Source: Flavitalea plasmicola (GTDB taxonomy: Bacteria; Bacteroidota; Bacteroidia; Chitinophagales; Chitinophagaceae). From it: a DNA stretch of 64,000 nt. A model generated the notes under the pieces. It made no database searches, was not told the DNA's origin, and worked only from the letters and a program-made list of their open reading frames with translations. Where the stretch lies: positions 186,001 to 250,000 of the forward strand of contig NZ_JAUOTO010000009.1 of the NCBI RefSeq assembly GCF_030546645.1, written 5' to 3'. Shown here in pieces: positions 9,221 to 37,268 of the stretch (its first letter is position 1; every line of letters begins with the position of its first letter). The position numbers and the translations under genes are program-made.

Positions 9221-10843
9221 ATGAAGTATTTATATAATGTATTGTTAGGACTGGTCTTATGCATTTCAGTCAGGGGGCAGGAGAATGATCGTGCGGAGCT
9301 GGCGTATACGCAGCGGCTGAGCCAGCGATTTCCGGACAGCGCCTTCTTATTATTAAAGGAGATGTATACGCAGTCCATTGCCAAGAAGGACCGGGCGAGC
9401 ACGGCAACCTGTCTTCAGCAGATGGGGCAGATCAGTTATTACCTGGGCAATTATTCCCAGGCGTTGGATTACCATTTACAGGCGGATAAGATCTTCCGGG
9501 AAGTGGGGCGCCGGGAGCAGACGGCGGCGAACCTGGATGATATGGGCATATTATATTATTACAACCGGCAGCTGCCCCTGGCGCGTAAGCAATATGACGA
9601 GGCGCTTGCTTTATACAATCAGTCGGGCAATGGCGAAGGGCTGGCGAATACCTATGGTAAGATCGGTCATCTCTATGAGAAGCAACGGAAATATGACAGC
9701 GCTTTCCTGTATCAGCGGCTGGCTCTGGCGCAATATCAGCGTATAGCGCATAAGCAGGGGATGGCCAAGATCTACGAGAACATGGGCAGCATCTATGAGG
9801 ACCTGGAACGTTATGACTCGTCGAATTATTATTTCACTGCTGCCCTGCAATTATATGAACAATCCGGCGATCGGGTGGCCAGCATCGAGGTGGTCAATAA
9901 CCTCGGCGACGTACTCCGAAAGACGGGGCATTATCCCGAGGCCATTGTACAGACCAACAAGGCGCTGGCATTGGCTATGCAGACCAATGACCTCTATGAG
10001 AAGGGGGCTGCTTACCGGGACCTTGGGAAGGCTTACCATTTATTGGGTAAGGAGGACAGTGCTTACCATTACCTGGAGCTTTCCCGACGCGCCACACTGG
10101 ATATCTATTCCGGGGAAAACAACCGGCAAACGGCCTTTCTCAGCGTGCTGTATGATATAGATAAGAAGAACGACGAGATCGTCCGGCTGGAAAATGCCCA
10201 CAAAATTACTGTCATCACTACTATTGCGGTGATCATCGTCGTTGTCCTGCTGATCGTATTAGGCGTTGTCATCATCAGCCGGCAGCGTTTGAAGATCAGG
10301 AATGAGCGTCTGACGGGCGAGCAGGACCGGCAGATCTATCGCACGCAGCGGGAGCTGATGCAGGCTGAGCTGCAGAACCGCCGGTTGCAGGAGGAAAAGC
10401 TGATGCAGGAGCTGGAAGTAAAACGTAAGGGACTTACCAGCAGTACCTTGCATGTGATCCAAAAGAACCAGCTGCTGGAGAATCTCAGGGATCGCCTGGC
10501 TGTTCTTGTAAAGGACGACAAGCGCGACCAGAAAAAACAGCTGCAGCAGCTGATCCAGCAGATAAACCTCAACTTCAACCACGACCAATACTGGAATGAA
10601 TTCCGCGAGACCTTTGGGCAGGTGCATCAGCAATTCTTCGACAACCTGAAAAGTCACAACGAAGAGCTGACGGGCAATGATCTCCGCCTTTTATCCCTCA
10701 TCAAGCTAAACCTCGCCTCGGGCGATATTGCCACTCTGCTGGGTATTTCCCAGGATAGTTTAAGGGTATCGCGGTACCGGCTGAAGAAAAAGCTGGCCTT
10801 ACATAATGGAGAAAGCCTGACGGCTTTTGTCCAATCGTTGTAA
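9221..10843 (+). CDS. TPR-repeat sensor/regulator with LuxR-like HTH end
   Basis: 540 residues from the ATG at 9221, which yields a signal peptide (MKYLYNVLLGLVLCISVRGQ). Residues ~40-290 are tetratricopeptide repeats, several with the N-L-D-D-M-G or Y-E-N-M-G-S-I-Y-E-D-L pattern. One membrane helix follows at ~330-352, then a cytoplasmic coiled coil rich in Q/E/L/R, and a C-terminal segment (N-D-L-R-L-L-S-L-I-K-L-N-L...I-S-Q-D-S-L-R-V-S-R-Y-R) resembling the GerE/LuxR-type helix-turn-helix common in Bacteroidota TPR regulators. So it probably senses in the periplasm and binds DNA from the membrane. The stop codon TAA overlaps the first unit of a 7-bp repeat array. Confidence 0.82.
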   Translation: MKYLYNVLLGLVLCISVRGQENDRAELAYTQRLSQRFPDSAFLLLKEMYTQSIAKKDRASTATCLQQMGQISYYLGNYSQALDYHLQADKIFREVGRREQTAANLDDMGILYYYNRQLPLARKQYDEALALYNQSGNGEGLANTYGKIGHLYEKQRKYDSAFLYQRLALAQYQRIAHKQGMAKIYENMGSIYEDLERYDSSNYYFTAALQLYEQSGDRVASIEVVNNLGDVLRKTGHYPEAIVQTNKALALAMQTNDLYEKGAAYRDLGKAYHLLGKEDSAYHYLELSRRATLDIYSGENNRQTAFLSVLYDIDKKNDEIVRLENAHKITVITTIAVIIVVVLLIVLGVVIISRQRLKIRNERLTGEQDRQIYRTQRELMQAELQNRRLQEEKLMQELEVKRKGLTSSTLHVIQKNQLLENLRDRLAVLVKDDKRDQKKQLQQLIQQINLNFNHDQYWNEFRETFGQVHQQFFDNLKSHNEELTGNDLRLLSLIKLNLASGDIATLLGISQDSLRVSRYRLKKKLALHNGESLTAFVQSL

Positions 10844-10882
10844 GCTACAAGCTACAAGCTACAAGCTACAAGCTGCAAGCTT
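10842..10882 (+). repeat. Heptanucleotide tandem array 1 (AAGCTAC), intergenic
   Basis: Four perfect units of AAGCTAC (10842-10869), one AAGCTGC (10870-10876) and a partial AAGCTTA. The first two bases are the last two of the TAA stop codon of the TPR gene, so the array sits exactly at the coding boundary. The same unit recurs inside two genes at 23676-23829 and 36634-36731. This is the cleanest and therefore perhaps the youngest copy. Confidence 0.95.
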
Positions 10883-11098
10883 AGTTTTGTCAGGCGACTT
10901 TGTGTTACGGTAACAATTTGGTAATGGAGGATCTTGTTCTTTGAACATGATTGATAACCATGCGATTGAATGCTGTTTGTCTATGCTGCTGCTGCCCGGT
11001 CTACGTCCCTTGCTACGCTGTTCCCATTTTGTTCATCCGGTGTTTTTCGCTTTTGCCGGGCGTCTGTGCACATTTGCATCGCAAAAAAACTAACTACA
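10883..11098. other. Leader region before the phosphatase-linked TonB receptor gene
   Basis: 216 bases between repeat array 1 and the ATG at 11099. The receptor frame is open back to 10970, but the clear signal peptide starts at 11099, so I do not extend the gene. I see no terminator, RNA gene or convincing TAnnTTTG promoter here. Confidence 0.4.
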
Positions 11099-13879
11099 AT
11101 GAAGTATTTATTTCCCCTATTACTCTTACTGTCGGGTGCGATGGCGGCTCAGTCGCAGACAGTGGTCCTACGAGGTTCCGTAGTGGACCGGCAGACCGGA
11201 GAGCCTTTGCAGGGAGCAACTGTAGAGATCGAGGGCCGGGATGGTTCCGGCACCAGGGGAGGGGCAAGGCTGGTGGCCGGATTGGACGGGACTTTTGTCT
11301 TACGGGATCTTCGGGCCGGCGATTATAAGATCAGGGTGAATGCCATTGGATATGGCAAATATGAAGCGGATGTTGTTGTGCGGGAAGGTGGTAGTACTAT
11401 GAGGATCGATATGGAGCGTCGTCAAACGGAGCTGGAGATGATGCAGGTCTCGGGGCGTCATGACAGGGGTTCCGAGCGGGCCTCCCTCCTGGCGGACCGC
11501 CGGGCTGACATCGTGCAGAATTCGCTTTCTGCCCGGAGTATCGAGATCTCCCCTGATCTTTCGGTGGCGAATACGGCTCAGCGGATCTCGGGTGTATCGC
11601 TGGAAAGGAGCTCTAATGGAGAAGGGCAGTATGTCATTATCCGGGGGATGGACAAGCGGTATATCTATACATTGGTGAATGGGATCAAGATCCCCAGCCC
11701 GGACAATAAGAACCGTTATGTACCGCTGGATATTTTCCCTGCGGATATGCTGGACAGATTGGAGGTGATCAAGTCGCTTACTCCCAATATGGAATCGGAT
11801 GCCATTGGCGGGGCGGTGAATATGATCATGAAGGATGCGCCTGCCAGATTTTCCGTCAATGCAAATGTTGCTGCGGGGTATGCCAGCAAGTTCTTTACCC
11901 AGGACTATACGCATTTCAGCAGTGGTCCCAGTCTGGATCTGAGCCCACGTCAGATCAACGGACCTTCGTATGTGGCTACCATGAAGGATTTCCCTGATAA
12001 TGCTTTCAGTCATGACACGCGGCACCATCCCCTTGCCTTGCTGGGGGGGCTGTCCATGGGAGGAAGGGTTTGGCATGATAAGCTGGGGATCCTGATCGGG
12101 GCCAGCTACCAGAACAATTACCGGAATGTCAATTCGGTATTTTTCAATACGGAGATGGCCAGTAATGGGGCTACCAAGGTAACGGGCATCGAGGACCGAA
12201 AATATTCCATTCAGCAGCAGCGGAGCGGCGTGCATGCGAAGCTGGATCTTACACCGGATGCAAGGAATAAGATAAGCCTGTATGGGGCCTGGCTCAATCT
12301 GATGCGGAATGAGTTCCGGATGGCTTCCGACACCAACCTTCAACTGGGGCGGGTGGGGCCGGGGTTTGGCCGGATCAACAATACCTACCGTACCCTGCAC
12401 GACGTGCAGCAAATGGTGAATGCCACATTGAAAGGGGAGCATCAGATAGGTGACAGGCTGAAGCTGGACTGGACGGGAGCTTATTCCAAAGCGACGTTGA
12501 ACAGGCCGGACGAAGGCGTCCTGAATGTTAGCACCGGCGTAAGTAAGGACTCTACGGGACATGCGGTGCATGCGCCTTCGACCTTATTCGAATCGGACAG
12601 GATCTTTGCCCACAGTTCGGACGAGGATAAGAGCGGCTATGCCCATCTTACTTATCGTACCCGGATCGGGGGTGTCAGGACAGACTGGCTGGCAGGCGGT
12701 ATGTACCGGAGCAAGAAGAGGACCAGCACTTATGACGATTATGAGCTGCGTCCCGCCAGTCCGAGCAACCAGCAGTATGACGGGGATATCCGTCACAATC
12801 ATTTCGAAGTATTCAACGGTCAGGGAACTTTTTCCGATGCCCTGAACTACACGGCGAAGGAGAATGTAGGGGCCGCCTATCTTATGTTGAAGCTCGACTG
12901 GCATAATTTCCTGATCACCGGCGGCACCCGTATAGAGAATACGGATCTCAGCTGGGCCAGCAACCTGCCGGAAACCGCGGAGGGCAAAACAGGTTCTGTA
13001 ACTTACTATGATGTGCTGCCCAGCGGCAATATCAAATATTCCCTCAATGCCAGGCAGGCCCTGCGTCTATCGTACTATTCAGCCATCAGCCGTCCCAATT
13101 TTTACGAGATCATACCGCACGTGTCCAATGACGCGGATGCGGACTATGACGAAAAAGGCAATCCGAACCTGAAGCATACGGTGTCGGATAACCTGGACCT
13201 TCGTTATGAGCTCTATCCCAAGGGGCTGGATCAGTTCGTGGCAGGCGTATTTTACAAGCGGCTGAAAAACCCCATCGAATATGCGTTGGTTAACGAGGGC
13301 ACGTTTGTATACTACGAAGCGTATAATTTCGGGAATGCCACGAATTATGGGTTGGAGGCTGATATGACGAAATTCTGGAGGTGGTTTGGCATCAAGGCCA
13401 ACTATACGTACACCCATTCTTCCATTACGACCACCAAGCAGCAAAATTACCTCATTACGGGCGGGAGCACCAACAGAATGATGGATCAGACCAGGCCTTT
13501 ACAAGGGCAGTCCAAGCATATCGCCAATCTGAGCCTGCTCTTCAAGGATGATGGCAGAGCCGGGCTGAATGCGCAGCTGGCCTTCGGGTATACCAGTGCG
13601 CGGATCAATACGGTGTCTCAGTTCCTGGACAATGATATCTGGCAGAAAGGGTTTGCTCAAATGGACTTTTCGGCGGAGAAAAGAGTTACGCGGCGGTGGT
13701 ATGTATATGCCAAGGTGAACAATATCCTTAATACACCTTTTCAATTGGAGATACGGCAGCCCTATACCGGTGTGGATGTAGTAGGGGATGTGAAATATCA
13801 GACCCCCGGCAAAAATACTTTCGTACGGAAGGACACTTACGGGACCAATTATCTGCTGGGAGTGAAATTTAAATTTTAG
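11099..13879 (+). CDS. TonB-dependent outer-membrane receptor with CarboxypepD_reg-like domain
   Basis: 926 residues from the ATG at 11099 (MKYLFPLLLLLSGAMAAQSQ signal peptide). Residues ~24-105 form a carboxypeptidase-regulatory-like beta domain (G-S-V-V-D-R-Q-T-G-E-P-L-Q-G-A-T-V). A plug follows (~135-270; V-I-I-R-G-M-D, L-E-V-I-K-S-L-T-P, G-G-A-V-N-M-I) and then a long barrel ending in ...L-L-G-V-K-F-K-F with the C-terminal phenylalanine needed for outer-membrane insertion. It begins a tight unit with a beta-helix lipoprotein (22 bases later) and a histidine phosphatase (8 bases after that). Context suggests uptake of a ligand freed by the phosphatase, for instance an inositol phosphate product; that is inference. 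Confidence 0.9.
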   Translation: MKYLFPLLLLLSGAMAAQSQTVVLRGSVVDRQTGEPLQGATVEIEGRDGSGTRGGARLVAGLDGTFVLRDLRAGDYKIRVNAIGYGKYEADVVVREGGSTMRIDMERRQTELEMMQVSGRHDRGSERASLLADRRADIVQNSLSARSIEISPDLSVANTAQRISGVSLERSSNGEGQYVIIRGMDKRYIYTLVNGIKIPSPDNKNRYVPLDIFPADMLDRLEVIKSLTPNMESDAIGGAVNMIMKDAPARFSVNANVAAGYASKFFTQDYTHFSSGPSLDLSPRQINGPSYVATMKDFPDNAFSHDTRHHPLALLGGLSMGGRVWHDKLGILIGASYQNNYRNVNSVFFNTEMASNGATKVTGIEDRKYSIQQQRSGVHAKLDLTPDARNKISLYGAWLNLMRNEFRMASDTNLQLGRVGPGFGRINNTYRTLHDVQQMVNATLKGEHQIGDRLKLDWTGAYSKATLNRPDEGVLNVSTGVSKDSTGHAVHAPSTLFESDRIFAHSSDEDKSGYAHLTYRTRIGGVRTDWLAGGMYRSKKRTSTYDDYELRPASPSNQQYDGDIRHNHFEVFNGQGTFSDALNYTAKENVGAAYLMLKLDWHNFLITGGTRIENTDLSWASNLPETAEGKTGSVTYYDVLPSGNIKYSLNARQALRLSYYSAISRPNFYEIIPHVSNDADADYDEKGNPNLKHTVSDNLDLRYELYPKGLDQFVAGVFYKRLKNPIEYALVNEGTFVYYEAYNFGNATNYGLEADMTKFWRWFGIKANYTYTHSSITTTKQQNYLITGGSTNRMMDQTRPLQGQSKHIANLSLLFKDDGRAGLNAQLAFGYTSARINTVSQFLDNDIWQKGFAQMDFSAEKRVTRRWYVYAKVNNILNTPFQLEIRQPYTGVDVVGDVKYQTPGKNTFVRKDTYGTNYLLGVKFKF

Positions 13880-13900
13880 TAAGCATTCAAATCAACTACG

Positions 13901-15274
13901 ATGAAACTTTTCAATTATCATATATCGATGGCGGTGGCCGTTGTGCTGCTGGGGGCTTGCCATAAGGAAGAGACGGTGCATGTATCCGCCAGGAAAGAAT
14001 ATATCAGCCAGCCCATTACCAGCGATACGCTGACGGGCGCCATCAAGGGAACGTTGCTCGGCGGAAAGACCTATTATTTCTCCCGGGATATAATCATCAA
14101 CGAGGGTGATACCGTGCTGATGCAGGAAGGCGCCAGATTGATAGCGATCGGAGACGGCAAGACCGCGGAGACCAGCCCGCAGGTGACCTGTAACGGCACT
14201 TTTATCAGCCTGGGCACCGCCGGGCATAACAATTTCATTACCGTACCGGAGGAACTGCGTACGACGGCGAACATCGGCAAGGGATTCTGGGGCGGCATTC
14301 AATGCGGCGCCACCAGCGGGGATGTCATCCTCAAGTGGACGCATATCGAGTTTGCAGGCGGGCCGGCGGGGGCTGCGCCCGACCTGAGTGTCTTCAAGCC
14401 CAAGGACCCGCGCAACTGCCTGAGCTATACCAATATCAATGGTAATTTCATCATGGAGGATTGCTGGGTATATGGCACCAAGGACGACGGGATGCGCATA
14501 CTCCACGGGCATGTCAGCGTCATGCGCAATACCTTCGAGGCTTGCGGGCTCTCCGGCGGCGAAGCCTTCAACCTGAAGAACGGCTGTCTTGGGGACGTAG
14601 CTTATAACCTTGTGATCGGTGCGGCCACCAACGGCTTCAAAGTCAGCAACAGCGGTGACGGTCCTGTGCAGACAAAAATTTATCTCTACAATAACACCAT
14701 CCTCAACTGTGGGTTCCGCCAGCAGAAAACAGGCCGCGGAGGTTCCATCAATTATGAGAAGAACGCGCAAGGAAAGATCTACAATAATATGATCATCAAC
14801 TGTAAGTATGGTTTGCGGCTGACCCCGGACGCGGACATGATCAATACCGCCTATAACCATCAGTTCTTTTATGCCAATGATCCAAGACTGATCAGTGAAT
14901 TCTATGCTTCAGACGGCAAGGGAGTGGCTCAAGGCGCCGACGTAAGGAGTGCGACCCCTAAGGCTAACAACCCTTTATTTGCGACTTATGATGTCAACCA
15001 GTTCGATTATATGACGGCCGGCACGCTGACGCTGGATATTTCGCAGATGCCTATCGGCATTATCAATGCGCAGGCTTATGATCTCAGCTTACTTCCCGGC
15101 AGTCCGGCATTGCTGAAAGGGGACGCGGATGCTTTCAAGGCGCAGCGGACGGTGCCACAGGGAGGAGCTTATGGAGCGAGCACGTTGAACCCCAATACGG
15201 ATATGGGGGCTTATCCCACGAATGGCCCGGGCAACCTGCATAAAGTGTCCAGTATTTCTGTTAAATGGAATTAA
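13901..15274 (+). CDS. Right-handed beta-helix lipoprotein, receptor-associated
   Basis: 457 residues. A lipobox (L-L-G-A-C, Cys near residue 20) predicts a lipid-anchored protein. The body has repeated short strands with N/G turns (V-S-V-M-R-N-T-F-E-A-C, I-Y-L-Y-N-N-T-I-L-N-C, I-Y-N-N-M-I-I-N-C), the look of a pectin-lyase-like parallel beta-helix, ending with the N-T-D-M-G-A-Y motif often seen at the end of such proteins. Family knowledge: such folds bind or cleave polymers, but I see no defined catalytic residues. It lies between the receptor and phosphatase genes and is most likely a surface binding partner of that receptor. Confidence 0.75.
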   Translation: MKLFNYHISMAVAVVLLGACHKEETVHVSARKEYISQPITSDTLTGAIKGTLLGGKTYYFSRDIIINEGDTVLMQEGARLIAIGDGKTAETSPQVTCNGTFISLGTAGHNNFITVPEELRTTANIGKGFWGGIQCGATSGDVILKWTHIEFAGGPAGAAPDLSVFKPKDPRNCLSYTNINGNFIMEDCWVYGTKDDGMRILHGHVSVMRNTFEACGLSGGEAFNLKNGCLGDVAYNLVIGAATNGFKVSNSGDGPVQTKIYLYNNTILNCGFRQQKTGRGGSINYEKNAQGKIYNNMIINCKYGLRLTPDADMINTAYNHQFFYANDPRLISEFYASDGKGVAQGADVRSATPKANNPLFATYDVNQFDYMTAGTLTLDISQMPIGIINAQAYDLSLLPGSPALLKGDADAFKAQRTVPQGGAYGASTLNPNTDMGAYPTNGPGNLHKVSSISVKWN

Positions 15275-15281
15275 TCATACG

Positions 15282-16625: not shown

Positions 16626-16710
16626 GGAGTTGGGTTAAGGTTTTGCTATCATAAAGAGAGAATTTGGTCAGGTGGCTGAAAGGGTTAATTTTATGCATAA
16701 TAATAACTAT

Positions 16711-17094: not shown

Positions 17095-17119
17095 AAGTAT
17101 TTCTGAATTAATTAAGGAT

Positions 17120-17146
17120 AACCCCGTCGGCAGGCCGACGGGGTTT
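17120..17146. terminator. Bidirectional rho-independent terminator
   Basis: AACCCCGTCGG at 17120-17130 pairs with CCGACGGGGTT at 17135-17145 around a CAGG loop. T-rich sequence follows on the right. It lies between convergent genes ending at 17094 (+) and 17153 (-), so it can serve both. Confidence 0.85.
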
Positions 17147-17152
17147 ATATTT

Positions 17153-17575: not shown

Positions 17576-17735
17576 AACTCTATTTTTTAAATTTTGTCTT
17601 TACTAAGATTGTGAAGGCTGACAACCGAAAGAGAGCAGAACAATCGAGAGAGAAGGCAAAGCGGGAAGCAATCAGGAGGGGCAAGTTTTTCGATGCTGGA
17701 GAGGCAATCGTTGGATTTCTTTGGACTTGATGATA

Positions 17736-18005: not shown

Positions 18006-18071
18006 CTTTGCTCTTTTGACCGATGGCTTCTGAGAGATCTTTTTCCTATCTATTACAACTTCAATTACGGA

Positions 18072-23403: not shown

Positions 23404-23408
23404 GCTTT

Positions 23409-24997
23409 ATGAGCAGAGCGTCCAGGCAGTTATCGCTGCCATTTATTCGTATCGACCGAAAGGTGCGGCGACCAGCGTATCAGCAGCTGTATGATGGGAT
23501 TCGCCTGGCTATCCTGGAGGGGAGGCTACGGCCGGGGGACAGGCTACCTGCCACGCGTTTGATCGCGGAAGAGCTGGGGGTATCGAGGAATATTGTGGTG
23601 ATGGCTTTCGAGCAGCTGGGGATGGAGGGGTATATACGGGGAAAGAGCGGGTCCGGGAGCTTTGTGGCGGGCTTTGAGCTGGAAGCTACAAGCGACAAGC
23701 GACAAGCTACAAGCTTCGAGCTGTGAGCCGTGAGCTGCGAGCGGGGAGTGAGGAGGTGCGAGGGGAGAGTGATGAGCTGCAAGCTTCAAGCGACAAGCTG
23801 CAAGTGGAGCGTGAGGAGGTTCAAGCAGAACGGAGATTAGGGGGAGATTTTTTACGGACATTGCAGCGGGTGGTGTTACCACGTAACACCCTCCGGGAGG
23901 AGATATTGCCTTTTCAGACGGGGCAGCCTGCTTATGACGCTTTTCCGTTTGCGGTGTGGAGCAAGCTGGCGGCCAGGGTATATCGCTACCTGGATTTTCA
24001 GCATCTGGGATATGAGGATGCGGCCGGCTATTTTCCTTTGCGGGAAGCGATCGCGGACCATCTGCGGGTGAACCGGAGCGTACAATGCGAGGCGGACCGG
24101 ATCCTCATCGTCAATGGTACGCAGCAGGCACTTGCATTATGTGCTCAGCTATTACTGCAGCCGGGGGATCGTTTCTGGATAGATAATCCCGGGTATGTGA
24201 ATGCACGTGCCGTTTTTACACTGTTTGGCGGCGAGCCATGTCCCATACCCGTGACAGGGGAGGGGCTGAATATCGACTATGCGATCCGACATCATCCGGA
24301 TGGGAAGCTGGCTTATCTCACGCCATCTCACCAGGATCCCGTGGGCGGCACTTTACCGTTGGCACAACGGCTCAGGCTGCTGGCATGGGCAAATGACCAC
24401 CGGTGCTGGCTGATCGAGGATGATTATGACAGCGAGCTCCGCTACCGGGGCAAGCCTATTCCGTCCCTGCAGGGGCTGGACACGCATGGGAATGTCATTT
24501 ACACCGGCACTTTCAGCAAAGTCCTTTTTCCGGCCCTGCGCATTGCGTATATGGTGCTGCCGGACCGGGAGACCTTCCAGGCATTCAAATCATTGAAAGC
24601 GTTGAATGACCGGCAGTCGCCGTTGACGGATCAGCTGATACTGACAGATTTTATCAAGGAAGGCTACTTTCACCGGCATCTGCGTAAGATGCGAGGAATC
24701 TATAACCAGCGATTGCAATGCCTGTTAAGCGAATTGCAGGCTCATCTCTCCGACCGCCTTTCATTCACGGATCCTTCCGCGGGGATGCATCTGGCGGCTT
24801 ATTTTTCGACGCCAGTCGATGAGGTACGGCTCATGCAGGCGGCGGCAGCCAGGAAGCTGGTGTTACCCAGTCTGCGGGAATATACATTGGGGGCTTACGA
24901 TCGTCCGGGCATTCTGCTGGGATATGCCGCGTTTCCCGAAGAAAAGATCCGTAAAGCAGTGAGGGCGCTGGCAGAATGCTTTGCTGAAATTAGTTGA
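23409..24997 (+). pseudogene. MocR/PdxR-type regulator split by a frame change at a 7-bp repeat array
   Basis: Two adjoining frames. 23409-23726 codes 105 residues with a GntR-type winged helix (R-R-P-A-Y-Q-Q-L-Y-D-G-I-R...L-P-A-T-R-L-I-A-E-E-L-G-V-S-R-N). 23723-24997 (GTG start, overlap GTGA) codes 424 residues of a type-I aminotransferase-like domain with the PLP lysine in G-T-F-S-K (residue 266), D-D-Y-D-S-E-L-R-Y-R and L-T-P-S-H-Q. These are the two halves of one MocR protein. The join lies in a 22-unit heptanucleotide array. Both frames are open between 23678 and 23723, so one added 7-bp unit there, or two lost, would make a protein of about 531 residues. It may be a pseudogene, a phase-variable gene or two co-translated proteins. 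Confidence 0.85.
23676..23829 (+). repeat. Heptanucleotide tandem array 2, inside the MocR-like gene
   Basis: 22 consecutive 7-base units in unbroken phase. Early units are close to AAGCTAC, AAGCGAC or AAGCTTC; later ones drift to GAGCTGC, GAGTGAG, GAGGTGC or GAGGGGA and then return to AAGCTGC. It codes a heptad pattern in both frames used (E-A-T-S-D-K-R-Q-A-T-S then S-D-E-L-Q-A-S-S-D-K-L-Q). It fills the linker between the DNA-binding and aminotransferase-like domains. Confidence 0.93.
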
Positions 24998-25012: not shown

Positions 25013-25028
25013 GCCTTATCTTTCCTAC

Positions 25029-29726: not shown

Positions 29727-29821
29727 GCGGTTGGGTTTCAGAGCGTAACAATGGTTGTTCTACATATTGCAATAAGGTTTAACGGTGGGGGGAGGGAGGT
29801 ATTTTAGCTTTTGGGGGTTTT

Positions 29822-30379: not shown

Positions 30380-30403
30380 GGTGGAATAGTTTTAGGCGTA
30401 ATA

Positions 30404-30420
30404 TACTAAAAATATTAGTA
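30404..30420. promoter_or_regulatory. Palindrome between DUF488 gene and GlxA-type regulator
   Basis: TACTAA (30404-30409) and TTAGTA (30415-30420) are inverted around five A/T bases. It lies in the 69-base divergent gap and could regulate both genes. Low sequence complexity makes chance possible. Confidence 0.4.
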
Positions 30421-30448
30421 ATTAAAGATTTCCTATCTTGTCCAAATT

Positions 30449-31396
30449 ATGCCTGACAGCAGAGTCATTTTCTACATCAACAAGGAAACGCATATCCTGG
30501 ACCTGGCCGGTGCGGTGCAGACATTTTATGAAAGCGGGGATTATGGGAAGCCTTACGAGATCCTCTATGTCTCCGACCGTGTTATGCAGCCCACTTCCGC
30601 GCAATTACGGATGACAGGTCTGAAGAAATATACCCAGGTAAAGATACGGGCATCGGACATCCTGATTGTGCCGGGATATGATCTGCGTCGACTGCCGCCT
30701 ATGGATGATCACCGGCTTTTTGCGTGGCTAAGGCAGGCGGGGCAGGCGGGGGCCACCATCTGTTCTATTTGCACAGGGGCGTTTACACTGGCAGCCGCAG
30801 GCTTGTTAGCAGGAAGGGAGTGCACCACGCATTGGAAATATACGGCGCGGCTGCAGCAGGATCACCCGTCATTGAAGGTGTTGAGCAACCGCCTGTTCGT
30901 AAAGAGCGGCAATATCTACACCAGCGCGGGGGTAACGACGGGATTGGATATGGCCCTTGCCCTGCTGGAGGAAAAGCATGGGGCGGAATTCGCTTTCAAG
31001 GTGGCGAGAGAGATGGTGGTTTATATCCGTCGTGATGGAAGCGAATCACAGGACAGCGTGTATCTGCAATACCGCGGGCATGTCAATGATGATATCCATA
31101 TCGTGCAGGATTGGATCATTCATAATCTGCCGAAGAAGATACGAGTGGAGCAGCTGGCCGCGTTGGTGTATACGAGTCCACGGAACCTCACCCGTCAATT
31201 CAAATCAAGCACGGGCATTACGATCGGGGAATACCTGGAGAAACTGCGTGTGGAAAAGGCGGTACAACTGCTGAGCAACCACTATAAGATCGATGCTGTC
31301 GCGCAGCAATGCGGGCTGCAAAGCGCCAATCAACTGCGGCATATCATCAGAAAACATACGGGACGTCTGCCTTCGGCATTGCGGAAGGTGTCGTGA
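30449..31396 (+). CDS. GlxA-type transcriptional regulator (DJ-1/PfpI domain plus AraC HTH)
   Basis: 315 residues. Residues ~5-195 form a DJ-1/PfpI domain with the cysteine of the elbow at Cys108 (S-I-C-T-G-A-F). Residues ~215-315 are an AraC-type double helix-turn-helix (I-R-V-E-Q-L-A-A-L-V-Y-T-S-P-R-N-L-T-R-Q-F and I-D-A-V-A-Q-Q-C-G). Such regulators are thought to sense small molecules through the amidase-like domain. The next gene codes an exported paralogue of the same DJ-1 domain without the DNA-binding part, suggesting a shared ligand. Confidence 0.9.
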   Translation: MPDSRVIFYINKETHILDLAGAVQTFYESGDYGKPYEILYVSDRVMQPTSAQLRMTGLKKYTQVKIRASDILIVPGYDLRRLPPMDDHRLFAWLRQAGQAGATICSICTGAFTLAAAGLLAGRECTTHWKYTARLQQDHPSLKVLSNRLFVKSGNIYTSAGVTTGLDMALALLEEKHGAEFAFKVAREMVVYIRRDGSESQDSVYLQYRGHVNDDIHIVQDWIIHNLPKKIRVEQLAALVYTSPRNLTRQFKSSTGITIGEYLEKLRVEKAVQLLSNHYKIDAVAQQCGLQSANQLRHIIRKHTGRLPSALRKVS

Positions 31397-31494
31397 ACCA
31401 GGAGAAGGCTTGTTGAGCGCAATTAAGTCCGCTTGTCCTGATACTGCGCAGGAATGTCCTACCTCTCCGGATGCGGGGAGACTACCTTTGGGAC

Positions 31495-32310
31495 ATGAAA
31501 AAGAAAATCATTTGTCAAACCGTTGTACTGCTGTTAAGCACTTTTTTTCTCAGGGCGCAGGGAACTGCTCTTAAGGACAGCATGGCCTGGCTCTGCGGCA
31601 TTTGTGGCGGCAGCTGTGACACGCTAGTATTCGCCAAGCCGGGGAACTGTCCTCACTGCGGGATGGAGCTGATCCATCAATCGGTGGCGGTGAGAAAAGA
31701 ATTGATCGAAAACTACAATAAACATATGACTATTTGCTTCTATCTGCAGGACGGTGTGGAGGTGCTGGATTTTGCCGGACCTATGGAGGTATTCGCGTAT
31801 GCCGGTTTCCATGTATTTACCGTCTCGCGGACGAAAGCGCCGATCGTCACCCAGGGTATACTCAAGATCATGCCGGACTACAGCATCGAGGATGCGCCCC
31901 CGGCTGATATCATGGCCTTTTTTGGCGGGAATACAGGACCGTCGTCGAAGGATAGCGCTGTCCTGAGTTGGATCCGGAAGCGAAAGACATCCACTTCCTA
32001 TTTTTTCTCTGTCTGCACTGGCGCCTTTATTATTGGAAAGGCGGGTGTATTGGATAATCTTACAGCAACCACCTTTCATGCCAGTATCGAATCACTGCGC
32101 AAGGCGTTGCCCGGAACCAAGGTGTTATCGGATACGAGATTTGTAGATAATGGGAATGTCATTACTACTGCCGGCATTTCCGCGGGGATCGACGGAGCCC
32201 TTCATCTCGTGGCAAAGCTTAATGGCGAAGAGACGGCCAGGGAAGTGGCTAAGTATATGGAGTATGATAAGTGGATACCGGGACAGGGGTTGGTGGTGCA
32301 GAAAAAATAG
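31495..32310 (+). CDS. Exported DJ-1/PfpI protein with N-terminal metal-binding motif
   Basis: 271 residues from the ATG at 31495, which gives a signal peptide (MKKKIICQTVVLLLSTFFLRAQ). Next comes a small cysteine module (C-G-I-C-G-G-S-C ... K-P-G-N-C-P-H-C-G-M-E-L) that resembles the heavy-metal-binding domain found at the start of copper-efflux proteins. The rest is a DJ-1/PfpI domain with Cys174 in S-V-C-T-G-A-F, closely related to the N-terminal domain of the preceding GlxA-type regulator. It may bind metal or a metabolite in the periplasm. A terminator follows. Confidence 0.82.
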   Translation: MKKKIICQTVVLLLSTFFLRAQGTALKDSMAWLCGICGGSCDTLVFAKPGNCPHCGMELIHQSVAVRKELIENYNKHMTICFYLQDGVEVLDFAGPMEVFAYAGFHVFTVSRTKAPIVTQGILKIMPDYSIEDAPPADIMAFFGGNTGPSSKDSAVLSWIRKRKTSTSYFFSVCTGAFIIGKAGVLDNLTATTFHASIESLRKALPGTKVLSDTRFVDNGNVITTAGISAGIDGALHLVAKLNGEETAREVAKYMEYDKWIPGQGLVVQKK

Positions 32311-32370
32311 CTGCTGACTGCCTGACAGGGGCTTTGCAGAACAGGCAGAAATTTAATGACATAAAAGACA

Positions 32371-32399
32371 AAAAAGCACTCTTTCGGGGTGCTTTTTTT
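32371..32399 (+). terminator. Rho-independent terminator after the exported DJ-1 protein
   Basis: AAAAAGCAC (32371-32379) pairs with GTGCTTTTT (32389-32397) and the run of seven T continues to 32399. It lies about 60 bases after the stop codon at 32310. Confidence 0.8.
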
Positions 32400-32417
32400 G
32401 TGTCTGGTTCTGAGATT

Positions 32418-32436
32418 GTTATAGATATGTTATAAC
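32418..32436. promoter_or_regulatory. Inverted repeat upstream of the Gly/Tyr-rich protein gene
   Basis: GTTATA (32418-32423) and TATAAC (32431-32436) are inverted around seven bases, 62 bases before the ATG at 32499. It may be an operator; there is no further support. Confidence 0.35.
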
Positions 32437-32498
32437 GAACGGGTCGAATCAACCTTGTCCATTTTTTGCCGTCTATTATAGACAAGGAGAATCAAGTT

Positions 32499-33149
32499 AT
32501 GGAAACGAAAATAAAAGATCAATTAAAACGAATGAGCGGCCGGACTGGCCGCAGGTTGCTGATCGTATTATTTGCAGCCGGGCTTTCCCTGGGCGCTTCT
32601 GCCCAGCGGGGAGTGAGTTATCACGGCGGAGGCGGCTTTCATGGCGGTGGGGGATACCACGGCGGCGGCCATATTGTGTATGCCTATCCCCGTACGTATG
32701 TAGGGCTTGGGCTGGGATTTGGCTATGGCTATCCCTTTGGTTACCCTTACGGGTTATATGGCCCCTGGGGTTATCCTTATCCTCCTTACTATTATGGTTA
32801 TGGTGCGATGCCTTCCAAGCTGGCTTTACAGATCGAGGACATTAAGAATGATTACAATGCCCAGATCAAGGACGTGCGTCACGACAAGTCGGTCCCCCGG
32901 AAAGAAAGAAAGGAAAAGATCAGACAGCTGAAGCAAGACCGGGATGCTGCCGTGATCCAGGCAAGAAAAGATTATTTCTACAGGAATTACCGCAGGGATA
33001 ATGGCAACGGGCCGCAGCCCTATAACGGCAATGGTTCGCAGCAACAGCAAAAAGATCAAAAGCCGGCGACGGGAAGTGAAAGTGAGCAGCCGGAGTATCA
33101 AAACAGTCCATCCTCCAATGGGGGATCTACTACACAGGAGCAACAATAA
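32499..33149 (+). CDS. Exported Gly/Tyr-rich protein, unknown
   Basis: 216 residues from the ATG at 32499, preceded by AAGGAGA (32484-32490). A signal peptide ends near S-A-Q-R (~residue 36). The mature part starts with G-G-G-G-F-H and G-G-G-Y-H-type repeats, then a Tyr/Pro/Gly-rich stretch (residues ~60-105) and a charged helix (~115-170, K/R/D/E rich) that likely forms a coiled coil. The tail is Asn/Gln/Ser-rich. No known family. It resembles envelope or stress proteins with sticky low-complexity regions. A strong terminator follows. Confidence 0.7.
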   Translation: METKIKDQLKRMSGRTGRRLLIVLFAAGLSLGASAQRGVSYHGGGGFHGGGGYHGGGHIVYAYPRTYVGLGLGFGYGYPFGYPYGLYGPWGYPYPPYYYGYGAMPSKLALQIEDIKNDYNAQIKDVRHDKSVPRKERKEKIRQLKQDRDAAVIQARKDYFYRNYRRDNGNGPQPYNGNGSQQQQKDQKPATGSESEQPEYQNSPSSNGGSTTQEQQ

Positions 33150-33196
33150 ATCACCTGTCGACTCTGATCGATTCAGTATCTTATCTGACGACTACG

Positions 33197-33228
33197 GGCG
33201 GCCTCTTCGTGAGGCCGCCTATTTTTTT
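33197..33228 (+). terminator. Rho-independent terminator after the Gly/Tyr-rich protein
   Basis: GGCGGCCTC (33197-33205) pairs with GAGGCCGCC (33211-33219) around TTCGT, followed by AT and seven T. It sits between convergent genes. Confidence 0.9.
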
Positions 33229-33243
33229 GGGGAGGTCCTTCGG

Positions 33244-33861
33244 TCAGCTTTGGAGGGCGTACATGATGATATTCACCCCAAACTTCGTGTTGTCTTCCGC
33301 CAGGAAGCGCTTGTTGCGAAAATCATAGTCCCATTCACAGCCATAATCCTTGTTGCTGTAAAGCACGCCGATGCGTCCATTGACCGTAATGGCTTTCAGG
33401 TAGTCGTGGACGAGGTCGTCGCCCCATCCGTTGAGCTCGAAAGCTGTGTTGGGCGGGCCTTTTTCGAATTTAAAGAAGGAATGGTAGATCTGGTGGTTAT
33501 TGGGTATTTTCTGCAGGGCGGCGGGTCCGAAAAGCGTTTGCATCTGTGCTTCGAATGACCGTGCGAAGAGGCCATCGATGTCGTGATTGCAGTCGTCGGC
33601 AAAGACGAAGCCGCCGTTGCGGACGTATTGGAGGAAATGGGCGCTTTCCTGGGTGTTGAACTGCACCAGCTTATGACCGCTGATATAGCAGAAAGGGTAT
33701 TGAAAGAGGTCGGTGCTTTCCAGGTCGACCACCTTTTCCTGCAGGTTGACGGGCAGGGTGGTGTATTCAATCAGTGAATTCAACAGGTTAGACGGCATAC
33801 GTTGATCTGTGTCCCAATCTCCCGACTTGTACCGTAGCCTCGCGAACGTGAATTGATTCAC
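33244..33861 (-). CDS. DUF4159 domain protein
   Basis: 205 residues. The N-terminus F-T-F-A-R-L-R-Y-K-S-G-D-W-D-T-D and the block L-V-Q-F-N-T-Q-E-S-A-H-F-L-Q-Y-V-R-N-G-G-F-V-F-A-D-D-C are typical of DUF4159, a class-I glutamine-amidotransferase-like fold of unknown activity. In other bacteria DUF4159 is fused to or encoded beside BatA-like membrane proteins. Here it is divergent from the MoxR operon that contains such a protein, so it probably belongs to the same system. Confidence 0.85.
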   Translation of the reverse strand: MNQFTFARLRYKSGDWDTDQRMPSNLLNSLIEYTTLPVNLQEKVVDLESTDLFQYPFCYISGHKLVQFNTQESAHFLQYVRNGGFVFADDCNHDIDGLFARSFEAQMQTLFGPAALQKIPNNHQIYHSFFKFEKGPPNTAFELNGWGDDLVHDYLKAITVNGRIGVLYSNKDYGCEWDYDFRNKRFLAEDNTKFGVNIIMYALQS

Positions 33862-33975
33862 CGGTGGTGTAATTTTTTTAAAGTTGATGATTTTATCTTT
33901 AATTTCCTGTTTTCGGGGTGAATTTTTGAAAAATACGAAGATTAGGATTTTTTTTAACCTATAAAATTCACGGGT

Positions 33976-34977
33976 TTGGAAATTGTCGAAAGCACTGTAC
34001 AGTCTTTATTGGGAAAACTCTCGCTCTTAAAAAAGGAGATACAGAAAGTTATTGTCGGGCAGGATGCTATTGTAGAGGAGATGCTGGTAACGTTGCTGGC
34101 CGGCGGACATTGTTTGTTAGAGGGTGTTCCCGGACTGGCGAAGACGTTGATGGTGCGGACCTTGTCGCAGGCGCTGGACCTTTCTTTCCGCAGGATACAA
34201 TTCACGCCGGACCTGATGCCTACCGATATCCTCGGGACAGAGATCCTGGAGGAGGACCATGCGACGGGCAGGCGTTTTTTCAAATTCAATAAGGGGCCGT
34301 TGTTTGCCAATATCGTGCTTGCGGATGAGATCAACCGTACGCCACCCAAGACCCAGTCAGCATTGCTGGAGGCGATGCAGGAGTTTGAGATCACCTACGG
34401 CGGGCAGACGTATAAGCTGGACAGGCCCTTCTTTATTCTTGCCACGCAAAATCCTATCGAGCAGGCGGGGACCTATCCTTTGCCTGAAGCACAGCTGGAT
34501 CGTTTCCTTTTATACATCAAGATCGGCTATCCCACAGCCGAAGAGGAGGCAGTGATCCTCAGCCATACTACCGGGACCCGGCGTCCGGCCGTTCATCCAG
34601 TGGTGAATGGTCCGGAAATCCAACAATTACAGAAGCTGGTAAGGGAAGTCAGCATCAGCGAGGACATGGTGAAATATGTTGCGGAGATCATCCGGGCGAC
34701 AAGGCCGGATACTACCTCCCAGCCGTATGTAAAGGAATGGGTGCGATGGGGAGCGGGTCCCCGTGCGGGGCAGGCCCTCATCCTGACGGCCAAGGCCAGG
34801 GCTTTGTTCAAACAACGATATGCTGTCATTCCCGAAGATATCCATGCTATGGCTTACCCGGTGCTGCGGCACCGGATATTGATGAACTTCAAGGCAGAGG
34901 CGGAGGCGATCACTTCCGACCAGGTGACTGGTGTGCTGTTGAAGGAGATCCAGCGACCGGCAACACCTTTATCCTGA
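33976..34977 (+). CDS. MoxR-type AAA+ ATPase
   Basis: 333 residues from a TTG at 33976; a stop at 33955 in the same frame and no ATG before Met36 make TTG the best choice. Walker A is G-V-P-G-L-A-K-T (residues 50-57), Walker B ends at Asp117-Glu118, and the region V-I-V-G-Q-D before it is typical. MoxR ATPases act as chaperones that assemble or activate partner complexes, often with DUF58 and von Willebrand proteins. It leads a unit of five genes with short gaps and overlaps (33976-41015). Confidence 0.92.
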   Translation: MEIVESTVQSLLGKLSLLKKEIQKVIVGQDAIVEEMLVTLLAGGHCLLEGVPGLAKTLMVRTLSQALDLSFRRIQFTPDLMPTDILGTEILEEDHATGRRFFKFNKGPLFANIVLADEINRTPPKTQSALLEAMQEFEITYGGQTYKLDRPFFILATQNPIEQAGTYPLPEAQLDRFLLYIKIGYPTAEEEAVILSHTTGTRRPAVHPVVNGPEIQQLQKLVREVSISEDMVKYVAEIIRATRPDTTSQPYVKEWVRWGAGPRAGQALILTAKARALFKQRYAVIPEDIHAMAYPVLRHRILMNFKAEAEAITSDQVTGVLLKEIQRPATPLS

Positions 34978-34991
34978 ACAGGGGACATCAG

Positions 34992-35879
34992 ATGAGCGAA
35001 TTACAAGACCACCATATTTTAATGGCCATCAAGGACCTTTCGCTGGCGGCGCGCCGGACGATAGACGGTTTTATGGCGGGAATCAATAAAAGCAAGGTCA
35101 AGGGACCGGGTTTGGAGTTCAGCCAATACCGGAGCTATCAGCCGGGGGATGATCTACGATGGCTGGATTGGAAACGATATGCCCGGAGCGACCGGTATTA
35201 TATCCGGGAGTCGGAGATAGAAACGAGTATCTCTATCCGGCTGCTGGTGGACGCCAGCAGCTCTATGGCGCACCGGGACGGCGCCTTCGCCAAGCTGGAT
35301 TATGCCCGCCTGCTGGCTGCCAGCCTGGGTTGGCTCGCCCATATGCAAGGAGATTCCTTCGGGCTTTATGTTTTCCAGGAGGGCGATGTCTTCTCTCTGC
35401 CCAGCCGGAAGGACCCACAGCATCTTGCCCGCTTTTTTTACCAATTGGAGAATATACGGCCAGGCGGGCGTATGGGAGAGCCCACTCAATATAAGCACAT
35501 CTTCACAGGGGACCAGAAAAGGGAGCTGCTGGTATTTTTCACGGATATGTATGAACGGGATGGAGAGATCAGCGGGTTGCTGGAGGTGCTGGCGGCATTG
35601 CGTCACGAGATCATTGTCTTTCATCTTATGGGAAAGAATGAGCTGGAGATGGACTATAAGGGATATCACCGGGTGCAGGACCTGGAGACGCGGGAACAGA
35701 TCCCTTTCAATGACTTACTGGCGCCAGCGGCTTATAAAGAACGGTTGCAAGCGTGGCTGGCGGGGGTGCGGATGCAGCTGTTGGATAAGCAGATCGCATA
35801 CAGCATGGTGCGCATGGACCAATCTCCGGGGGATGCGCTGCGGGATTTTTTAAAGCAAAGACAAAAAACCATCGGATAG
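34992..35879 (+). CDS. DUF58 domain protein
   Basis: 295 residues from the ATG at 34992. The DUF58 core is clear: G-P-G-L-E-F-S-Q-Y-R-S-Y-Q-P-G-D-D-L-R-W-L-D-W-K and the following S-I-R-L-L-V-D-A-S-S-S-M, a vWA-like MIDAS motif (D-x-S-x-S). It is cytosolic and the usual partner of MoxR. It starts 14 bases after the MoxR stop and is followed 3 bases later by a TTG start. Confidence 0.92.
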   Translation: MSELQDHHILMAIKDLSLAARRTIDGFMAGINKSKVKGPGLEFSQYRSYQPGDDLRWLDWKRYARSDRYYIRESEIETSISIRLLVDASSSMAHRDGAFAKLDYARLLAASLGWLAHMQGDSFGLYVFQEGDVFSLPSRKDPQHLARFFYQLENIRPGGRMGEPTQYKHIFTGDQKRELLVFFTDMYERDGEISGLLEVLAALRHEIIVFHLMGKNELEMDYKGYHRVQDLETREQIPFNDLLAPAAYKERLQAWLAGVRMQLLDKQIAYSMVRMDQSPGDALRDFLKQRQKTIG

Positions 35880-35882
35880 ATC

Positions 35883-37268
35883 TTGTTACAGCTGTTACAA
35901 CCCATATGGTTATTCGCAATGGCCGGGATCGTTTTTCCGGTGGTGATCCATTTATGGAATAACAAGCAGGGAAAGGTATTAGCTATCGGGAGCGTTGCCT
36001 TGCTGGAAAAGACTTCCCGGAAGAAATCGCGCAGCCGGACGGTGTCCGAATGGCTGCTGCTCCTGATGCGTTGTCTTTTGCTGCTGTTGCTGGCTTTGTT
36101 GCTGGCGGGGCCTTACTGGAAGAAGACGGATGGCGCGGGAAAGAAGGGATGGGTATTAGTGGGGGAGGAACCGTTGCGCGGGGAAGTGCGGGCGGTGATG
36201 GACTCATTGATAAAGATTGGCTGGGAACGGCATGACCTGGCAGGTGCTTCCCGGTGGGCGGATGTTTCATCGCTGGACCGGCAGGCTGCACCGGAGATCC
36301 CTTTTTGTATTTTTTCCGATGACCTTTTGCAGCATTTTGCGGGTGCACGTCCTGTGACGACGCGGATGGTTCGATGGTATGTGAACCCGGCCGGAGATAG
36401 CGTTGTAAAATGGGTCGATAAGATGTGGGCGATGGAGCATGACAGTGTTGGAGTGATCTCGGGGAGCAGTGGGCCGACGGGAAGTACGTACAAATATGAA
36501 GAAATGGAAAGGAGGGCGGCGGATCGTTTAGATACTTCCGTGCTGCGTGTTGCCATATATGCTGACGGGATCGATGGACAGTGGGTGGGGGCGGCTGTGA
36601 GGGCGTTGCAACAGTTTACACACAGACGTTTGGAAGCTACAAGCTACAAGCTGCAAGCTGCAAGTGACAAGCTGCAAGCTGCAAGCCGCAAGCTGCAAAC
36701 CACGAGCTATGAGCTGCGAGCTGCGAGCCGGGGTTTAGGTAAGATGGATTGGGTTTTTTGGTTATCCGGGAGGGCGGTACCGCCGGGGTTGAAGGCTGCG
36801 AACATACTATTTTATGAGCCCGGGAAAGAAATACCGGTGGATACCTGGGTAGGGGGTACGAGTGTACGGGTGGAGAAAACGACGGCACAGACTGTGCAGG
36901 CGGACACGCTGCAACCTGTGTGGGTGGACGGGTTTGGAAAGCCCTTACTGGGACTGGAAGAAAGGGAAGATGGAAGGCGATGGCATTTTTTTAGCCGTTT
37001 TGATCCTGCGTGGAACGGATTGGTGTGGAGTGCTGGTTTTCCGCTGTATTTGCAGGAGCTGTTGTTTGGAAAAGAGCAGCCTGCCCAGGACAGGCGAATG
37101 ATAGATCCGCAGCAAATGGTCCTTGCCTATGGGAGGCGGGATATCGAAGCACCGATGGTCAACGCGGGGGCGGCTGTTGATCTTGCGCCCGCCGGGTGGG
37201 TACTGATCTGTTTATTGTTGCTGTTCGAAAGGATATTGAGCTTTAAGCGATCCAGGAATAATGGGTGA
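35883..37268 (+). CDS. BatA-like membrane protein carrying a heptad repeat insert
   Basis: 461 residues from a TTG at 35883; the family N-terminus (Q-P-I-W-L-F-A-M-A-G-I-V-F-P-V-V-I-H-L-W) begins right there and no ATG fits. Helices lie near residues 8-26 and 57-78, and a final helix at ~437-452. The BatA N-terminal domain is present but there is no von Willebrand domain. Residues ~251-283 are coded by a 14-unit 7-bp repeat and read S-Y-K-L-Q-A-A, S-D-K-L-Q-A-A, S-R-K-L-Q-T-T, S-Y-E-L-R-A-A, probably a coiled coil in the periplasmic part. The frame stays open across it. The gene overlaps the next one by 8 bases. Confidence 0.8.
   Translation: MLQLLQPIWLFAMAGIVFPVVIHLWNNKQGKVLAIGSVALLEKTSRKKSRSRTVSEWLLLLMRCLLLLLLALLLAGPYWKKTDGAGKKGWVLVGEEPLRGEVRAVMDSLIKIGWERHDLAGASRWADVSSLDRQAAPEIPFCIFSDDLLQHFAGARPVTTRMVRWYVNPAGDSVVKWVDKMWAMEHDSVGVISGSSGPTGSTYKYEEMERRAADRLDTSVLRVAIYADGIDGQWVGAAVRALQQFTHRRLEATSYKLQAASDKLQAASRKLQTTSYELRAASRGLGKMDWVFWLSGRAVPPGLKAANILFYEPGKEIPVDTWVGGTSVRVEKTTAQTVQADTLQPVWVDGFGKPLLGLEEREDGRRWHFFSRFDPAWNGLVWSAGFPLYLQELLFGKEQPAQDRRMIDPQQMVLAYGRRDIEAPMVNAGAAVDLAPAGWVLICLLLLFERILSFKRSRNNG
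36634..36731 (+). repeat. Heptanucleotide tandem array 3, inside the BatA-like gene
   Basis: 14 units in perfect phase, starting with AAGCTAC twice, then AAGCTGC variants, AAACCAC, GAGCTAT, GAGCTGC and GAGCCGG. Total 98 bases, not divisible by three, yet the reading frame is open throughout because every + strand frame of the unit is stop-free. Same unit as arrays 1 and 2. Confidence 0.95.

Follow-up and report, generated by a model that had tools for sequence, protein, structure and literature searches.

Heptanucleotide arrays of Flavitalea plasmicola belong to a dispersed, lineage-specific repeat family that mostly takes the form of imperfect hairpins at gene ends

A stretch of 64,000 nucleotides (nt) of the Flavitalea plasmicola genome (contig NZ_JAUOTO010000009.1, positions 186,001-250,000, + strand; hereafter the window) carries three tandem arrays of a unit of seven base pairs (bp). 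These arrays are members of a large, dispersed and lineage-specific family of DNA repeats. Rather than coding arrays, its members usually form short imperfect hairpins, placed directly at gene ends. The three copies in the window are all unpaired: one lies at a stop codon, one is in-frame in a BatA-like open reading frame (ORF), and one splits a GntR/aminotransferase gene that we take to be of the MocR type (Table 1). Arrays of 7-bp units are reported by Tandem Repeats Finder at 10842-10881 (5.7 copies, 96% matches), at 36634-36722 and piecewise within 23683-23804, all on the + strand. The original prediction, made from the sequence alone, had described three same-strand arrays of 5, 22 and 14 units; the strand is confirmed, and a position-weight model of the unit changes the counts to 6 (10842-10883), 20 (23669-23808) and 14 (36634-36731).

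Table 1. Heptamer arrays of the window and the reading frames that they touch (window positions).
Feature	Position	Strand	Remarks
Unpaired heptamer array, about 5.7 units	10842..10882	+	Begins inside stop codon TAA of upstream ORF; not inside a gene
TPR protein ORF upstream of the 10842 array	9209..10843	+	TPR_12, E 7.8e-27; start codon uncertain; stop overlaps array
Unpaired drifted heptamer array between two domains of the MocR-type gene	23669..23829	+	20 units by weight model (23669-23808); 22 units, to 23829, in the original prediction
GntR DNA-binding part of split MocR-type gene	23409..23726	+	PF00392; stop inside array at 23724-23726
Aminotransferase class I/II part of split MocR-type gene	23723..24997	+	PF00155; other frame than GntR part; start uncertain
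Unpaired heptamer array, 14 units, in-frame in BatA-like ORF	36634..36731	+	Peptide about EATSYKLQAASDKLQAASRKLQTTSYELRAASR
ORF with BatA N-terminal domain, carrying the in-frame array	35883..37268	+	PF07584, E 2.4e-15

It had also been proposed that no forward frame through such an array contains a stop. This is true of pure AAGCTAC/AAGCTGC units, and all three sense frames are open through the 10842 array; through the 36634 array two of three are open, and through the array at 23669-23808 none, the frame of the GntR domain meeting a TGA at 23724. An AlphaFold2 model of the array peptide (five sequences) reached a mean predicted local distance difference test score of 46.4 and says nothing about a coiled coil. 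Arrays of this kind can break genes and perhaps assemblies, and peptides of the KLQATSY type in predicted proteins call for caution, as they can be repeat-derived linkers.

The size of the family was assessed in the whole genome of F. plasmicola (8.73 Mb in 19 contigs) with RAGCTNCRAGCTNCRAGC, an 18-base pattern of two and a half units for which overlapping matches were each counted. Exact matches numbered 211 + 163 = 374, with 0 + 0 for a reversed-pattern control, and matches with one mismatch 525 + 356 (control 6 + 0). Arrays as such were searched in 2.40 Mb of this genome, a sample picked by contig (C19 and parts of C11, C12, C3, C1 and C2), partly because matches had already been seen there; genes in the sample were called with a codon-usage script made for this analysis and not with a standard caller. 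The sample holds 136 non-overlapping arrays with the consensus unit RAGCTNC, in which AGC is present at 93-98% and position 6 is free. At the same threshold and before removal of overlaps, 159 arrays compare with 14 in the reversed sequence. The family is accordingly far from confined to the three places in the window, as had been anticipated. Each of 32 congeners holds 0-5 exact matches to RAGCTNCRAGCTNCRAGC, with any match at all in six of them (1 to 5; control 0). The scan of Chitinophagaceae that had been suggested was done with a narrower pattern and gave matches in 7 of 147 genomes, the own genome included (control 0). A search of the phylum gave matches in 5 of 148 genomes, again including the own genome, the other four being at or below control level (control matches in 6 of 148). 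Since matches are abundant in F. plasmicola and few in the genus, family and phylum searches, the data point to expansion in one lineage. Seven loci totalling 116,000 bases, compared with Rfam at gathering scores, contained a transfer RNA only and no known element.

Most arrays of the sample do not stand alone. According to our analysis, 82 of the 136 are arms of 41 converging inverted pairs, which the original prediction had missed, and 54 are unpaired. A typical copy consists of two converging 35-bp arms of five 7-bp units each around an AT-rich centre that often resembles GACTTAATAAGTC and is often palindromic by eye, such as GGACTTAATAAGTCC. Polarity is fixed, with 39 adjacent +/- pairs against a single -/+ pair. 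Array size has its mode at five units (71 of 136), followed by four (19) and by seven and nine (7 each), a distribution affected by the fact that arrays of three units or fewer rarely pass the threshold. The commonest pair is 5+5 (14 of 41), and pair length ranges from 77 to 351 bp with a median of 96. Over the whole genome, a strict 5+5 pattern gave 50 + 50 matches (the two strands largely mark the same places, some of them in several registers; control 0 + 0). An independent set of 31 new 5+5 hairpins comprises all such places in previously unused parts of the genome; the pattern that defines it fixes unit positions 2-3 and leaves positions 5-7 free. These hairpins are 79-102 bp long (median 84), their centres are 72% A+T as against 58% in intergenic DNA, and their predicted RNA folding energies lie between -34 and -52 kcal/mol.

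Position relative to genes was examined as well. Among the 136 arrays, 106 are intergenic, and this, together with the 82 that are pair arms, argues against linkers and frame switches as the main role; of that earlier proposal there remain, in the window, the one in-frame linker of the BatA-like ORF and the one frame break of the MocR-type gene. In intergenic spaces of at least 20 bp, the 39 pairs that could be placed (of 41) occupy 24 of 843 tandem, 10 of 143 convergent and 5 of 266 divergent spaces, so that density is higher between convergent genes than between tandem (p 0.02) or divergent ones (p 0.01). Within the spaces, pairs often sit at stop codons: 30 of 44 junctions lie within 4 nt of the adjoining stop, where 19.8 would be expected under uniform placement in the same spaces, and for 29 of the 41 pairs one stop or more lies no further than 10 nt away. 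In the independent set, which comes without a placement control, 24 of 31 hairpins touch a stop at -4 to +6 nt. The stop at the hairpins is TAG in 23 of 42 cases, whereas gene calls overall have TAG in 441 of 1861 (p 1.4e-5); for stops in the independent set the figure is 18 of 30. This TAG is mostly the first three bases of the terminal unit, so the outermost unit overlaps the stop. Counting paired and unpaired arrays alike, 41 of the 106 intergenic arrays start at -2 to +5 of the stop of an upstream gene on the same strand.

Unpaired arrays lie more often in sense than in antisense. The 29 intergenic ones comprise 13 in tandem spaces in sense, 1 tandem antisense, 6 in convergent and 2 in divergent spaces, and 7 that were not placed. 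Within genes, 18 of 25 are in sense and 7 in antisense (p 0.04), in the comparison of strand with transcription that had been suggested at the outset. Across all 54 unpaired arrays, 111 of 162 sense frames are open compared with 84 of 162 antisense frames, a difference and not a rule.

Along the genome, array-rich regions alternate with stretches of 140-220 kb that are poor in arrays or free of them (C12:1-140000 and 200001-420000; C11:60001-220000 and 400001-620000). In 20-kb bins examined for replication-strand bias, all 11 unpaired arrays of C19 lie on the + strand, with positive GC skew; gene strand is a confounding factor here. At two contig ends the sequence stops within or beside heptamer arrays: C2:2-186 (L140) and C1:256562-256708, the latter contig ending at 256713. 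At the C2 end, five-unit arms recur with a period of 41 bp, and breaks in the assembly may be due to long arrays.

The gene order of the window is preserved in two congeners, G018 and G004 (in G004 the stretch between the first two genes is shorter), which allows the sites to be compared with and without arrays, as the original prediction had suggested for orthologues. All three window arrays are absent at the matching places in both. No array exceeds the model threshold in the compared stretches of G018; in those of G004 a single match does, a weak one of four units that lies elsewhere than at the three sites. At the 10842 site the G018 flanks continue without an array, and in G004 there is none after the orthologous stop, where the downstream flank differs. 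The MocR-type gene is a single open frame in G018 and G004 and two ORFs in different frames in the window. At the array of the BatA-like protein, the alignment shows gaps of 21 residues (G018) and 29 residues (G004). Two hairpins of 85 bp (L109:5763-5847) and 78 bp (L109:9232-9309) could be compared in the same way. They lie between sufB and sufC and in a later spacer of what is presumably the SUF iron-sulphur operon, judging by its gene names. The two spacers have 94-97 bp of unaligned sequence in F. plasmicola, compared with 20 and 21 in G018 and 9 and 12 in G004, and G017 has a longer, different stretch at both. On these alignments the arrays and hairpins are probably gains in the F. plasmicola lineage, losses in both relatives being less likely.

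If the hairpins were kept for their stability, the free position 6 should match between the two arms, and the opposite was found. In a first set of 39 pairs, position 6 matches in 39 of 182 unit pairs, a fraction of 0.214 compared with 0.344 (standard deviation, sd, 0.034) when partners are swapped. Restricting the set to arms of up to seven units (28 pairs) leaves 26 matches in 131 (z -3.5; other registers -0.6 to 1.7), and the 14 exact 5+5 pairs give 12 of 70 where 21.6 are expected (9 of 2000 shuffles). The 31 new hairpins repeat the pattern: position 6 matches in 35 of 155 unit pairs (56.3 expected, sd 5.9; 1 of 5000 shuffles) and position 5 in 71 of 155 (83.0 expected; 7 of 5000 shuffles). 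Position 4, which is free in the fifth unit only, gives 133 matches where 139.6 are expected (83 of 5000 shuffles); positions 1 and 7 show no effect in this set, and deviations in its other registers do not exceed 2 sd. When the 45 5+5 elements are taken together, joint matches at positions 5 and 6 number 23 among 225 unit pairs (45.9 expected), and 5.4 elements would be expected to match at 29 or more of the 35 positions, whereas none exceeds 28. The mean duplex energy between arms is correspondingly weaker than between swapped arms (-39.97 vs -42.91, sd 1.27). Selection for good arm pairing was tested in this way and found reversed; on our reading, a near-perfect stem of 35 bp would be counter-selected.

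Traces of growth can be seen within the arrays. Identical units stand two apart 49 times, where 34.2 are expected (sd 4.5); counts exceed expectation by about 2 sd at lags 1 and 3 and fall below it at lag 4 (11 vs 21.0, sd 4.3), a pattern that fits duplication of one to three units. The flanks of the arrays are mutually unrelated: after masking of the arrays themselves, one similarity remained among the flanks of all 136, which speaks against segmental duplication of arrays with their surroundings. The idea of a mobile or self-expanding repeat class is partly supported by the dispersal over the genome, the absence from two congeners and the excess of identical units two apart.

The RAGCTNC unit occurs well beyond F. 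plasmicola. A 25-base pattern matched at least 118 stretches in a scan of GTDB contigs; these stretches were selected for holding arrays, and counts in them describe arrays and not genomes. Among the 80 named matches listed, most belong to Pseudomonas, Halomonas, Alcanivorax and their relatives. The matches listed also include metagenome-assembled genomes (MAGs) of Clostridia, Selenomonadaceae, Omnitrophota, Gemmataceae, Uhrbacteria and Kiritimatiellales, whose contigs may be misbinned and which we assume to represent several phyla. Exact counts in 14 of these genomes range from 4 to 478, with a reversed control of 0 except for 18 in Halomonas beimenensis and 2 in one Pseudomonas. Within Pseudomonas, 41 of 59 genomes have a match, the maximum being 97. 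The at least 118 stretches contain 205 arrays, 114 of them in converging pairs, and 67 of 155 intergenic arrays with an upstream gene end on the same strand start at -2 to +5 of its stop. The loops of the hairpins vary from lineage to lineage, and in some of them there is a terminator of ordinary appearance. In Alcanivorax the arrays are long and homogeneous, with runs of one unit variant, and fit plain slippage there.

Searches of the open-licence literature with unit strings found no published description of a RAGCTNC family: long exact strings occurred in no paper, and of the papers matched by single units one concerned a plasmid iteron string and the others were irrelevant to judge by their titles. 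The original prediction, which knew of no described family with this unit, is not contradicted by this literature; the unit itself is found in many other bacteria, and published heptamer families resemble the present one in anatomy. It belongs to the dispersed heptamer repeats, a known general kind, and has three features that do not appear in the passages compared: five-unit arms overlapping stop codons, arms that match below chance, and occurrence of the unit in distant phyla. Heptamer repeats are reported to be over-represented in bacteria, for which there is no agreed reason in the passages compared (PMC4692102). Closest in anatomy, as far as these passages go, is the GGGAATC (GGGANTN) family of Xanthomonas, with 183-186 tracts per genome, a preferred size of four units (range 2-26) and 70-75 converging inverted pairs per genome; 89-93% of its repeats are intergenic and few intragenic, they lie on average 28 nt from the 5' neighbour and more often between convergent than divergent genes, and most are found between the same genes in two species (PMC4692102). 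The likeness to this family and to the GGGGA(C/T)T repeats of Nostoc extends to dispersed tracts of a 7-bp unit with variable bases, and with the Xanthomonas family RAGCTNC also shares converging inverted pairs, a mostly intergenic location and a small preferred unit number (PMC4692102). Unlike that class, which has a G-quadruplex unit, RAGCTNC has an AGC core and no G run, and its five-unit arms, stop-codon overlap, arm mismatch and presence in several phyla differ from what the compared passages report for GGGAATC (PMC4692102).

Geobacter metallireducens has paired sites, of which class 3 consists of five tandem heptanucleotides MTYCTGA, and also 49 elements of four heptanucleotides; regulator binding sites or regulatory RNA have been proposed for them, and insertion sequences lie at a fixed distance from some class 1 sites (PMC2700814). 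These repeats resemble RAGCTNC in their tandem heptamers, their fixed small numbers and their opposite-strand pairs at variable distance (stated there for classes 1 and 2), and the 49 elements also in having copies within and between genes; their units differ and their copies number in the tens, in the parts of the report compared (PMC2700814). The TAACTGA repeats of Beggiatoaceae, Cyanobacteria and some Bacteroidetes are likewise a dispersed heptamer family, patchy across distant phyla with strain-specific paths, and differ from RAGCTNC in that the compared passages describe them, in their main genome, as lying in front of start codons in direct orientation, a single case being indirect (PMC4679880). 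Like REPINs (PMC3116915) and ERIC elements (PMC10969869), the pairs described here are short, mainly extragenic, high-copy hairpins, and they show the inverted-doublet hairpin given for REPINs in the passages compared (PMC3116915). Unlike both, as described there, they have arms of tandem heptamers, no link to RAYT was found for them, and no target-site duplication was seen at two sites. ERIC insertions at the 3' ends of genes are reported to alter transcript level (PMC10969869). As with Rickettsia palindromic elements, some copies lie in-frame in genes and add peptide; these Rickettsia elements are described, in the passages compared, as in-frame elements of about 150 bp, whereas in-frame RAGCTNC copies are mostly single-armed arrays (PMC10969869). 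Of the 30 genic arrays in F. plasmicola, 25 have no partner arm (18 in sense, 7 in antisense), and a palindrome inserted in-frame is not the usual genic form. Stem-loop families at 3' ends share the preference for positions within 50 bp after stops and for convergent over divergent genes, and none is named with a RAGCTNC unit in the passages compared (PMC1590033).

On balance we lean towards the reading that the arrays are members of a dispersed family, particular to this lineage, of imperfect hairpins at the 3' ends of genes, one that would have spread within this genome and would act in RNA. Copies may arise through an insertion or template-copying step at gene ends and in tolerant linkers, and arrays may then grow or shrink by unit-sized duplication, which would produce the long single-armed arrays of the window. 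Sense orientation may be commoner inside genes because stop codons are more frequent when the reverse strand is read. In RNA the hairpin might provide a 3' end structure for messenger RNA stability or processing, as has been reported or proposed for ERIC and REP, rather than a classical terminator, and its mismatches might be retained because a stem of 35 bp with almost no mismatch would risk instability in DNA or cleavage as double-stranded RNA. Several observations weigh against this reading. A role at 3' ends leaves unexplained why hairpins stand within an operon, between its genes, and why 5 of the 39 placed pairs lie between divergent genes. Arms pair worse than with swapped partners, the reverse of what selection for a stable stem would give. 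No target-site duplication, a mark of miniature inverted-repeat transposable elements (MITEs), is visible at the two operon hairpins, where the comparison with G018 and G004 was by eye and is a weak test. Nearly every one of 25 five-unit left arms has an N pattern of its own, and with the unrelated flanks this makes a recent burst from one master unlikely. Finally, in the named set from other bacteria (mostly gammaproteobacteria), arm mismatch is a weak trend (z -0.8, and about -1.5 and -2.3 for two registers in a second test), matching is just as low in the other registers, which means that the trend does not depend on register, and position 7 matches above expectation (z 3.4); the arm-mismatch rule can therefore be claimed for the own genome only.

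Among the alternatives, microsatellite growth is possible, if less probable: a seed such as TGAGCTAG near a stop would expand by slippage, independently in many lineages, helped by the self-complementary AGCT, which with three further bases would give a 4-bp stem and a 3-nt loop. The homogeneous Alcanivorax arrays, the excess over shuffled sequence of identical units at lag 2, the loci without shared flanks and the wide occurrence of the unit would all follow from it, and TGAGCTAG is indeed found in G018 at a stop where F. plasmicola carries a hairpin. Slippage does not readily give a mode at exactly five units in place of a decreasing size distribution, converging pairs with a polarity of 39 to 1, centres that are AT-rich and similar, or the near-absence of exact matches from the congeners. 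We consider it improbable that the hairpins are intrinsic bidirectional terminators whose stems are heptameric by chance. Stable predicted hairpins at stop codons and the higher pair density between convergent genes would suit such terminators, whereas there is no clear T-run (TTTT follows 6 of 35 hairpins compared with 8.2% of control 10-mers, p 0.06; mean T 3.11 vs 2.97 in the control), arms avoid matching, and hairpins stand between genes of an operon.

Paired binding sites for a regulator that binds DNA or RNA and recognises the AGC core at intervals of seven bases, by analogy with the proposal for Geobacter, would explain the near-invariant core with its free base, the opposite-strand pairs and the arms of five heptamer units, a number shared with class 3 in the compared part of that report (PMC2700814); a position at the stop codon is unusual for a transcription regulator, and we think such sites quite unlikely. 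About equally unlikely are phase-variation switches of the kind known from contingency loci. A change of one unit does shift the frame, and the MocR-type gene is broken across an array and whole in two relatives, but 106 of 136 arrays are intergenic. Drifted repeat units, moreover, slip less. Least likely of all are REPIN-like miniature elements moved by a RAYT (Y1/IS200-type) transposase, in spite of the two inverted arms, extragenic location and high copy number that REPINs have in the passages compared (PMC3116915). Array-rich Alcanivorax has five matches to PF01797, one of them with arrays nearby, but F. plasmicola has two, the same number as array-poor G018 and G004, and Halomonas beimenensis has none despite 210 exact pattern matches (reversed control 18). 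Arrays lie near 1 of 15 Y1_Tnp loci in eight genomes, counted by PF01797 only. These copy numbers make mobilisation by RAYT/IS200 unlikely.

A broader reading, which we put forward as a doubtful one, is that stop-codon hairpins in many bacterial phyla are built time and again from RAGCTNC, with centres particular to each lineage and with selection that would preserve mismatches between the arms, one or two bases per unit in the majority of units. If true, it would imply a shared, undescribed copying or recognition step that reads AGC every seven bases independently of RAYT. Within F. plasmicola, the family offers a test system, with hundreds of pattern matches in one genome, very few in congeners, and empty sites to compare. 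Arm matching below chance is a measurable rule that separates chance growth from selection, and should it hold in other lineages, the questions of why heptamers and why hairpins at gene ends become directly testable.

Some individual copies in other organisms deserve mention. In Alcanivorax sp. S6407, for example at C11:223315-223417 of its assembly (G181), ordered blocks of GAGCTAC, AAGCTAC and AAGCTAA form a visible record of unit-by-unit growth. Stretches L151 and L152 of a Clostridia MAG (G188) and stretch L261 hold heptamer-armed hairpins whose loops are alike by eye between copies, as if recently expanded. Viral contigs from IMG/VR (L276, L282, L283, L292 and L271) each carry several AAGCNNC arrays on one strand, spaced along the stretch, and converging pairs occur in one of 31 such viral stretches (L291).

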